This document shows, in pieces, positions 2,853-52,590 of a stretch of 64,000 bases of DNA; position 1 is the stretch's first letter, and every line of letters begins with the position of its first letter. The DNA is from Agrococcus sp. ARC_14 (GTDB taxonomy: Bacteria > Actinomycetota > Actinomycetes > Actinomycetales > Microbacteriaceae). A program made the position numbers and the translations under genes. The DNA lies in assembly GCF_022436485.1 (NCBI RefSeq), contig NZ_JAKUDO010000001.1:1054001-1118000 (forward strand), given 5' to 3'. Under the pieces are notes generated by a model that had not been told where the DNA came from, ran no database searches, and saw nothing but the letters and a program-made list of their open reading frames with translations.

Positions 2853-4241
2853 ATGGCGCTGACGGACATCGTGAAGGCCTATGACGTGCGAGGCCTCGTC
2901 GACGGGCAGCTCACCGAGCAGGTCGTGCGGGCGCTCGGCGCCGCCTTCGCCGACGAGGTGGGCACGGCGAAGCCGATCGTCATCGGGCACGACATGCGCC
3001 CCTCCTCGCCCGCGCTCGCCGCAGCTGCGGCCGATGGCGTGCGGGCGCGCGGCGCCGACGTGGTGCTCATCGGGCTGTGCTCCACCGACGGCACCTACTT
3101 CGCCTCCGGTGACCTCGACGCCCCCGCGATGATGTTCACCGCATCCCACAACCCCGCCGCCTACAACGGCATCAAGTTCTCGCGCGCGGGCGCGCGCGGC
3201 GTGAGCCTCGACACCGGCCTCGCCAGCATCCGCGACGGCGCGCAGCGCTACCTCGACGAGGGGCTGACCGAGGTCGCCGAGCACGGTGAGCTCACCGAGC
3301 GCGACGTGCTCGCCGACTACGCGGCGCACCTGCGCTCGCTCGTCGACCTGCGCGGCATCCGGCCCCTGAAGGTCGTCGTGGATGCGGCGAACGGCATGGG
3401 CGGGATGACGGTGCCTGCGGTGCTCGGCGAGGCTGCGGGGCTGCCGGGCCTGCCGCTGGAGATCGTGCCGATGTACTTCGAGCTCGACGGCACCTTCCCG
3501 AACCACGAGGCGAACCCGCTGGAGCCGAAGAACCTGGTCGATCTGCAGGCCGCCGTGGTGGAGCACGGTGCCGACATCGGCCTCGCCTTCGACGGCGACG
3601 CCGACCGCTGCTTCGTCATCGACGAGCTCGGCGGCGCGGTGTCACCCTCTGCGGTCGCCGCGATCGTCGCCGAGCGCGAGATCCGGCGGGTGCAGGCGGA
3701 GGGGGAGCGCGATGTCGTCGTGATCCACAACCTCATCACCAGCCGCGTCGTGCCGGAGGTGATCGCCGATGCCGGCGCCACGCCCGTGCGCACTCGCGTC
3801 GGCCACTCGCTCATCAAGGACGAGATGGCGCGCACCGGTGCCGTCTTCGGCGGCGAGCACTCGGCGCACTACTACTTCCGCGACTTCTGGGGCGCTGACA
3901 ACGGCATGCTGGCCGCGATGCACGTGCTCGCGACGCTCGGCTCGAACGACGAGCCGATGTCCGCGCTCGCCGGGCGCTACACGCCCTACTGCTCCTCCGG
4001 CGAGATCAACTCCACCGTCGCCGACGTGCCTGCCGCCTACACGCGGGTGGTCGAGGCGTTCTCGGGCCGCGGCGAGTTCGACGAGCTCGACGGCCTCACC
4101 GTCACCTCGCCCGACGGTGCCTGGTGGTTCTCGGTGCGCCCGTCGAACACCGAGCCGCTGCTGCGGCTGAACGCCGAGGCCGAGACTGAGGCGACCATGG
4201 TGCAGATCCGTGACGAGGTGCTGGCGCTCATCCGCGCCTGA
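2853..4241 (+). CDS. manB: Phosphomannomutase/phosphoglucomutase
   Basis: A 462-aa alpha-D-phosphohexomutase interconverting hexose 6- and 1-phosphates (mannose, possibly glucose), supplying GDP-mannose for glycans. The phosphoserine loop TASHNP is near residues 96-101 (S98), the Mg-binding DGDADR near 247-252, the sugar-binding GGEHS in the third domain and the phosphate-binding RPSNTEP near 429-435, in the normal order. Length is normal. An AGAGGAA ribosome site precedes the ATG. It follows the DUF3499 gene by 7 nt, as in other actinobacteria. Whether it prefers mannose or glucose cannot be told from the sequence. Confidence 0.93.
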   Translation: MALTDIVKAYDVRGLVDGQLTEQVVRALGAAFADEVGTAKPIVIGHDMRPSSPALAAAAADGVRARGADVVLIGLCSTDGTYFASGDLDAPAMMFTASHNPAAYNGIKFSRAGARGVSLDTGLASIRDGAQRYLDEGLTEVAEHGELTERDVLADYAAHLRSLVDLRGIRPLKVVVDAANGMGGMTVPAVLGEAAGLPGLPLEIVPMYFELDGTFPNHEANPLEPKNLVDLQAAVVEHGADIGLAFDGDADRCFVIDELGGAVSPSAVAAIVAEREIRRVQAEGERDVVVIHNLITSRVVPEVIADAGATPVRTRVGHSLIKDEMARTGAVFGGEHSAHYYFRDFWGADNGMLAAMHVLATLGSNDEPMSALAGRYTPYCSSGEINSTVADVPAAYTRVVEAFSGRGEFDELDGLTVTSPDGAWWFSVRPSNTEPLLRLNAEAETEATMVQIRDEVLALIRA

Positions 4242-44298: not shown

Positions 44299-44354
44299 CC
44301 CCTCCCGTCCCGATCCATGGGCACTGCCGCATTGGCGTGCTCGCTCGAACCAGC

Positions 44355-44464
44355 GAGTGGCGCCCTGCGGGATCGAGTGGCGCCTCGCGCCATCGAGTGG
44401 CGCCCTGCGGGATCGAGTGGCGCCCTGCGGGATCGAATGGCGCCCTGCGGGATCGAATGGCGGA
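44355..44464 (+). repeat. 20-bp tandem array A, five full copies and one partial
   Basis: Unit GAGTGGCGCCCTGCGGGATC, copies at 44355, 44375, 44395, 44415 and 44435, then a half copy to 44464. Copy 2 differs in its centre (CTCGCGCC) and the last two start GAATGG. No spacer separates the copies. The reverse complement of the GAATGG form agrees with array B at 14 of 20 positions. Confidence 0.95.
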
Positions 44465-44490
44465 GTGTGCGACCGCCCCCGATGTGATGC

Positions 44491-44710
44491 CGGAAGCCGC
44501 CAATGGATGCCGGAAGCCGCCAATGTATGCCGGAAGCCGCCAATGTATGCCGGAAGCCGCCAATGGATGCCGGAAGCCGCCAATGTATGCCGGAAGCCGC
44601 CAATGGATGCCGGAAGTCGCCAATGGATGCCGGAAGTCGCCAATGGATGCGGGGAGCCGCCAATGGATGCGGGGAGCCGCCAATCGATGTTGGGAGGCGC
44701 CAACGGATGA
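44491..44710 (+). repeat. 20-bp tandem array B, eleven copies
   Basis: Unit CGGAAGCCGCCAATGGATGC, eleven back-to-back copies from 44491 to 44710. Copies alternate between AATGGATGC and AATGTATGC in the first six, carry GTCGC in copies 7-8, GGGGAGCC in 9-10 and decay in copy 11 (TGGGAGGCGCCAACGGATGA). The graded change toward the eno side suggests unequal exchange within the array with older units at the edge. Confidence 0.95.
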
Positions 44711-46108
<1,398 letters not shown>

Positions 46109-52506: not shown

Positions 52507-52590
52507 GGCTGAGGAGCGCGCGGCCCTCCGGGCCGCACGCGTCACGAAGCCTCGCTGCCCCGCACGCGTCTCGAAGCCTCGCCGACCCGC
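52507..52590. repeat. Dispersed GAGGAGCGCGC/CGCGTCACGA repeat
   Basis: This follows the 53-bp palindrome directly. GAGGAGCGCGC, then a GGCCCTCCGGGCC stem-loop, then ACGCGTCACGA match the plan of the repeat at 1912-2024, with a different loop. ACGAAGCCTCG and TCGAAGCCTCG are a further short direct repeat here. It separates the LemA-like gene and the convergent glycosylase gene. Confidence 0.65.

Follow-up and report, generated by a model that had tools for sequence, protein, structure and literature searches.

What are the two 20-bp tandem repeat arrays that lie between hisS and eno in Agrococcus sp. ARC_14, and what maintains them? We analysed them within a window of 64,000 nucleotides of this genome (the source genome, G000) and across 24 Agrococcus genomes. 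Both fall between the end of hisS (44298) and the start of eno (44828), and both were recovered by Tandem Repeats Finder (TRF; Table 1). A single degenerate unit pattern catches the two arrays on opposite strands; it matches the window 16 times, with 15 matches falling inside the arrays. This is far above the expectation from window shuffles (mean 0.90 matches, 0 of 100 shuffles reaching 16), so the two adjacent arrays reported in the initial annotation are real. The minus-strand unit of array B, ATTGGCGGCTTCCGGCATC, is identical to the array A unit, AGTGGCGCCCTGCGGGATC, at 14 of 19 positions. Given that array B is the reverse complement of the array A unit family, the arrays are not separate, as had been annotated, but form the inverted arms of a single element, further copies of which lie at other places in the genome. 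The gap between them is 23 bp by the TRF bounds, rather than 26 bp.

Table 1. Coordinates of the features discussed. Positions are those of the window, except for the P0001 gene, which is located on the source genome.
Feature	Coordinates	Strand	Basis and description
Array A (forward arm)	44354..44462	+	TRF, unit pattern; 5.4 units of 20 bp, 89% matches, consensus CGAGTGGCGCCCTGCGGGAT
Inter-arm loop, 23 bp	44463..44485	.	Interval between TRF bounds
Array B (reverse arm)	44486..44709	-	TRF, minus-strand pattern matches; 11.2 units of 20 bp, 93% matches, minus-strand unit TGGCGGCTTCCGGCATCCAT
TAGGCT in short promoter-side eno block	44773..44778	+	Sequence; shared with eno leaders of array-free Agrococcus genomes
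P0001 gene	G000 C1:1876867-1877751		295 residues, related to DUF559 and MTES_1575

Several features of the initial description hold. The units run head to tail with no unique spacers between them, and a CRISPR array was rejected on this ground; the units are non-coding, as a period of 20 is not a multiple of 3. Decay of the edge units is present as a trend: in arrays of at least six units, with each unit scored against its own array consensus, the outermost units match at 17.4 of 20 positions and the middle units at 18.6. Exchange between units, which had been proposed, is likewise supported. An Rfam scan of the window returned one tRNA and no match at the arrays, and no described element with this unit was found in a search of an open-licence PMC library. 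Elsewhere in the window, a 61-bp GC-rich unit occurs twice at 1912-2029 and a 27-bp unit occurs twice at 52533-52590, both with CGTCACGA-like parts.

The position upstream of eno had suggested a minisatellite that tunes this gene, and a comparison of the hisS-eno spacing among relatives had been proposed. The interval is readable in 22 of the 24 Agrococcus genomes (G019 only in part; G003 and G015 were excluded as unreadable), and arrays are present in only four of them: the source genome, G004, G013 and G019, where the array lies at a contig start. With 18 of 22 readable intervals free of arrays, tuning of eno is not supported and control of this gene was rejected; judged from these genome sequences, the block is not required for eno within Agrococcus. 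A suggested role as a source of structured RNA fared no better. Folding of the block does not exceed that of dinucleotide shuffles (z -0.59), the whole hisS-eno intergenic region gives z +0.78, and selected RNA structure was rejected on these two values. At hisS-eno, neither the borders of an insertion nor a target duplication could be delimited. In a set of 60 relatives, matches to the window region were found in 18 of 24 Agrococcus genomes (source included) and in 1 of 36 others; this lone non-Agrococcus match (L018) is array-free, and in G002, G009 and G018 the best match comprises the eno leader only. The TAGGCT hexamer of the short promoter-side block might, as a guess, be the -10 element of eno; a consensus promoter scan detected no promoter at this block. 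In G010 (L276) and G018 (L277), a different long palindrome, ATCTCAACGTG...CACGTTGAGAT, occupies the array position between hisS and eno.

The hisS-eno element is one of a dispersed set. Three-unit matches in exact 20-bp phase number 34 forward and 32 reverse in the source genome, with none for a reversed control pattern, and together with a search for shorter arrays they group into about ten loci. Comparable elements occur in most Agrococcus genomes, and we fetched 89 loci, picked for earlier array or gene matches (9 from the source genome and 80 from 12 others); one of these, L334, has no array of three units, and the context counts use the other 88. Where at least three units are present in each orientation, the forward arm lies to the left of the reverse arm without exception (67 of 67 qualifying loci among 90, the window included). 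Steps between units are exactly 20 bp in 970 of 1020 cases across 155 arrays, in a chain search that accepted steps of 18-22 and 40 only. One arm is unusually long, with 45 forward units against 10 reverse units at L329 of G011 (2921-4031). Short arrays occur in outlying Agrococcus genomes: L011 in G023, L019 in G021, L182 in G008, and L015 and L183 in G007.

The array clusters are extragenic, with gene overlap flagged in 1 of 88. By a crude custom gene caller, and at loci partly orthologous between genomes, the flanking genes are convergent at 55 loci, codirectional at 26, divergent at 4 and unassigned at 3; thus, of 85 clusters with known context, only four lie in divergent (promoter) intervals. 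Among control gene pairs at the same loci separated by at least 30 bp, 20 of 241 are convergent. This excess (55 of 85 versus 20 of 241) would suit bidirectional terminators or 3'-end stabilisers grown by slippage, with any nuclease link secondary, but promoter avoidance would yield identical placement. Given also that the RNA fold is no better than shuffles, that no terminator-like site was found within the arrays, and that the genome-wide core switching and the residue 98 correspondence described below are left unexplained, we regard such a function as improbable.

One element of the source genome stands apart in that its arms are about 1 kb apart and enclose a gene, for the protein P0001. 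Its match to DUF559 (PF04480) scores 20.9 bits in the genome search and 19.5 bits alone, against a curated cut-off of 20.6. The structure model (pLDDT 93.8) matches I-Bth0305I, Vsr and AbiEi, and the fold matches predict an AbiEi-like N-terminus and a Vsr/EDxHD-type nuclease domain in one protein. Among 66 relatives, E191 and D223 are invariant, and H240 and D249 are at least 90% conserved; P0001 thus has both the predicted fold and the E, D, H and D residues of the EDxHD/Vsr type. Several paralogs of the DUF559-type family are present per Agrococcus genome. In an open-licence PMC library, no described function of this nuclease family was found, and no paper there that mentions DUF559 concerns repeats by its title.

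Counting the source genome, 15 of 24 Agrococcus genomes have a P0001 ortholog, at 63-87% identity outside the source; G005 has a broken copy. Wherever examined, the gene sits at a fixed locus between pdtaR and a hotdog thioesterase gene, followed by polA; with these as neighbours, there is no adjacent AbiEii partner, and no AbiEii-type toxin gene was found beside the P0001-type gene in the loci examined. By TRF, 20-bp arrays lie on both sides of 12 intact orthologs and of the broken G005 copy; the flanks in G017 and G007 hold short or degenerate copies, and the locus in G014 is interrupted by a contig end. Three genomes (G021, G008 and G023) have a relative of 46-47% identity at the pdtaR-hotdog locus, and the short-array unit at L019 of G021 resembles the unit beside that genome's own gene. 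In five others (G002, G009, G003, G015 and G012), pdtaR and the hotdog gene adjoin and the gene is absent.

The occurrence of the gene and of the arrays coincides across the genus. Arrays away from the gene are present in 15 of the 16 gene-bearing genomes (broken copy included); the exception is G018, in which none were found except at the gene itself. No arrays were detected in the five gene-less genomes by the GTGGCG pattern or by GGTCAC-type and GGCCAC-type array queries, with G009, G003 and G015 being 65%, 78% and 86% complete. The association has a Fisher p of 3e-4 (with G021, G008 and G023, which have short arrays, omitted), to be read with three of the five gene-less genomes forming one clade. 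The eno tree makes G009 and G002 losses of their own, with weak support for the placement of G002. In G005, dispersed arrays are retained (L306, L134, L144) and the array-linked nuclease gene is broken.

The unit sequence is also specific to the genome. Its core is either GGCGC or GGNCA, and in most genomes nearly pure: 86 of 86 units are GGCGC in G000 and 98 of 98 in G006, and 99 of 101 are GGNCA in G001. When loci were grouped by both flanking genes, 16 groups were common to several genomes (the gene's own locus included), and at 11 of these, as read off the locus list, the core differs between genomes. At one such locus G000 and G019 have GGCG versus GGTC in G005; at another, G016 has GGTC versus GGCG in its sister G014. 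In the three mixed genomes described below (G014, G016 and G022), blocks of both cores occur within single loci (L318, L347 and L372).

One residue of the linked protein, residue 98, tracks the core. In an alignment of 21 proteins it is R wherever the flanking core is GGNCA (12 of 12) and Q, V or H wherever that core is GGCGC (9 of 9), the two core classes having been defined only after R was seen to be common to two core types. Two further proteins, from G014 (Q, GGCGC) and the broken G005 copy (R, GGTCA), also fit, so that the rule holds in 23 of 23. On the protein tree, four core changes are required, and well-supported branches force at least two of these. Columns 58 and 276 likewise split the core classes, but each class has many different residues there. 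A difference in every one of the three sister contrasts is seen at five columns, of which only 98 has a single residue on one side throughout. In label shuffles that ignore the tree, 1 of 2000 yields a column that splits the classes perfectly, counting the 150 columns of lower variability. Residue 98 lies between predicted strands at 86-90 and 102-106, next to R96 and R99, which are invariant in the 21 proteins. The rule was also tried in other genera, to which it does not carry over.

Three related genomes have mixed dispersed units (GGCGC versus GGNCA: 34 versus 50 in G014, 8 versus 129 in G016 and 53 versus 14 in G022), although their genes carry GGCGC arrays. The most extreme is G016, where 129 of 137 dispersed units are GGNCA, yet the gene has Q98 and GGCGC arrays. 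The match of core and protein is therefore not strict, this mixture being its main exception, and we read the mixture as a switch of specificity in progress. The evidence from position, loss, core and residue is concordant, and for genomic data it supports well that the DUF559-type gene and the arrays are cognate; the earlier suggestion of a protein-bound repeat is probably right.

Could passive minisatellites produce the same pattern, arising by slippage, homogenised by ordinary recombination, and adjacent to the gene by descent? Adjacent units are indeed alike within arrays, and the gene locus is vertically inherited, so that the gene-flanking arrays are non-independent cases. However, at many unlinked loci the core follows the genome, and at one and the same locus it varies from genome to genome, which makes a passive origin unlikely. 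In addition, residue 98 covaries with the core, the hisS-eno arrays come and go where gene-side arrays persist, and no arrays were found in the five gene-less genomes; we assign this origin a small probability only. Another possibility is that the arrays are binding sites of a DUF559-type regulator or chromosome organiser, with the nuclease fold rarely or never used and selection matching sites to protein. The AbiEi-like N-terminal fold, the strict 20-bp spacing (970 of the 1020 steps accepted), and the core matched to residue 98 are all consistent with such a protein, and arrays on both sides of the gene would fit autoregulation. Against it, positions are unconserved (the hisS-eno array being missing in 18 of 22 readable genomes), divergent promoter intervals are avoided (4 of 85), and the nuclease residues are conserved, making a purely regulatory role unlikely, if the least so of the alternatives considered here.

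We favour, as fairly probable, a reading in which the hisS-eno block is a non-autonomous dispersed element of a DUF559/MTES_1575-type nuclease that spreads in a manner similar to a homing endonuclease. Such an element would take the form [unit]n - loop - [reverse unit]m, with the nuclease, P0001, encoded elsewhere. The AbiEi-like N-terminal domain would read the unit, and the loop with residue 98 would read the core after GG, while the Vsr/EDxHD domain would nick or cut the units or a hairpin formed by them. Repair from other arrays could then copy units in, such that arrays spread, lengthen and homogenise, much as a homing endonuclease propagates its own gene. Tolerated sites would be intergenic 3' ends, above all between convergent genes. 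Binding, cutting and copying are inferred, with cutting by the protein and copying of units by repair suggested by the fold and the rewriting pattern.

REP and REPIN palindromes are credited to RAYTs, which offer the closest comparison. Two reports (PMC3116915; PMC8049555) describe REPIN/RAYT systems as dispersed extragenic inverted doublets, capable of forming hairpins and tied to a single-copy, vertically inherited nuclease-type gene, with REPs also occurring as tandem higher-order forms. The Agrococcus elements are similarly dispersed extragenic inverted doublets (67 of 67 forward-then-reverse), and repeats of this kind also border the linked gene on both sides (at 12 intact orthologs and the broken G005 copy). 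This common design, as outlined in PMC3116915 and PMC8049555, speaks for a REP-like repeat dispersed by a RAYT (Y1/HuH transposase) that escaped recognition. However, no match to PF01797 was found in any of the 24 Agrococcus genomes, at a sensitivity at which the control detects 5 of 14 known genomes, and a RAYT was rejected as very improbable. Unlike in REPIN/RAYT systems, the linked protein has a predicted Vsr/EDxHD-type fold with an AbiEi-like domain, and the 20-bp arrays keep a 20-bp phase while the unit sequence is replaced at fixed loci. The best reading is that the system works like REPIN/RAYT without being a member, and without a RAYT.

The protein also differs from its nearest structural counterparts. 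Phage EDxHD homing endonucleases such as I-Bth0305I have extended DNA-binding regions, according to a review (PMC3943268). In contrast to these enzymes, the N-terminal half of P0001 is AbiEi-like, the Agrococcus gene stays at one locus, and it is the gene-less repeats that vary elsewhere. Unlike AbiEi antitoxins, the P0001-type gene has no adjoining AbiEii-type partner, and unlike either these antitoxins or Vsr repair nucleases, P0001 fuses both folds in one protein. Neither the enzyme nor the repeat appears to belong to a known repeat system, and the combination, parallel in design to REPIN/RAYT, is possibly new.

Beyond Agrococcus, TRF found no matching inverted 20-bp array pair at any of 64 loci, in a scan of the best 80 of 91 relatives. 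Some DUF559-type genes of other Micrococcales (L210, L234 and L256) lie between long hairpins, the left and right ones being alike. Requiring that the two share an exact run of at least 9 bases, paired hairpins occur at 11 of 58 non-Agrococcus DUF559-type loci (47 fail the rule) versus 2 of 212 control genes at the same loci (Fisher p 1e-6). A looser count gives a hairpin on the left at 26 and on the right at 39 of 68 loci (two more of the 70 chosen were too short, and six of the 68 are from Agrococcus), with shuffles that preserved base composition only. The hairpin of L234, in Arthrobacter, is found 13 times in its own genome (counting the two gene flanks), at 7 and 7 places in two genomes with the same hairpin type and at 2 in a third, so that this type is dispersed in four Arthrobacter genomes; it is absent from four further genomes, of which two are Arthrobacter. 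Hairpin arms commonly measure about 20-25 nt and may begin like an array unit (GATTGG, GAGTTGCC), whereby one array unit is taken as one hairpin arm. Intermediates exist within Agrococcus, from single hairpins (L139 and L131) through about three to six units (L132, L133 and L143) to the longer arrays of the P0001 clade. In 20 other Agrococcus DUF559 stretches, hairpins lie on both sides in four (L405, L416, L421 and L422) and on neither side in seven; the hairpin of the source-genome paralog L405 has 0 matches in the window. The pdtaR-hotdog interval of the gene-less G002 (L380) has a hairpin, CGCGTGTCAGGTTGTTG..., very similar to the one beside the other DUF559 gene of the same genome (L420), a likeness that hints at a separate repeat for each paralog.

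More tentatively, and with rather less confidence than for the block itself, these observations may reflect an as yet undescribed Micrococcales class of interspersed repeats run by DUF559/MTES_1575-type nucleases. Each paralog would have a cognate palindrome, as single hairpins in most genera and 20-bp arrays in Agrococcus, with a residue-98 code and homing-type cut-and-copy rewriting in place upon a change of specificity. The apparent specificity switch in G014, G016 and G022, together with a candidate recognition residue, would make the coevolution of protein and repeat directly testable. If the proposal is true, an unrelated nuclease family would fill a role analogous to that of RAYTs, and a nuclease family rich in paralogs in Agrococcus would gain a role.
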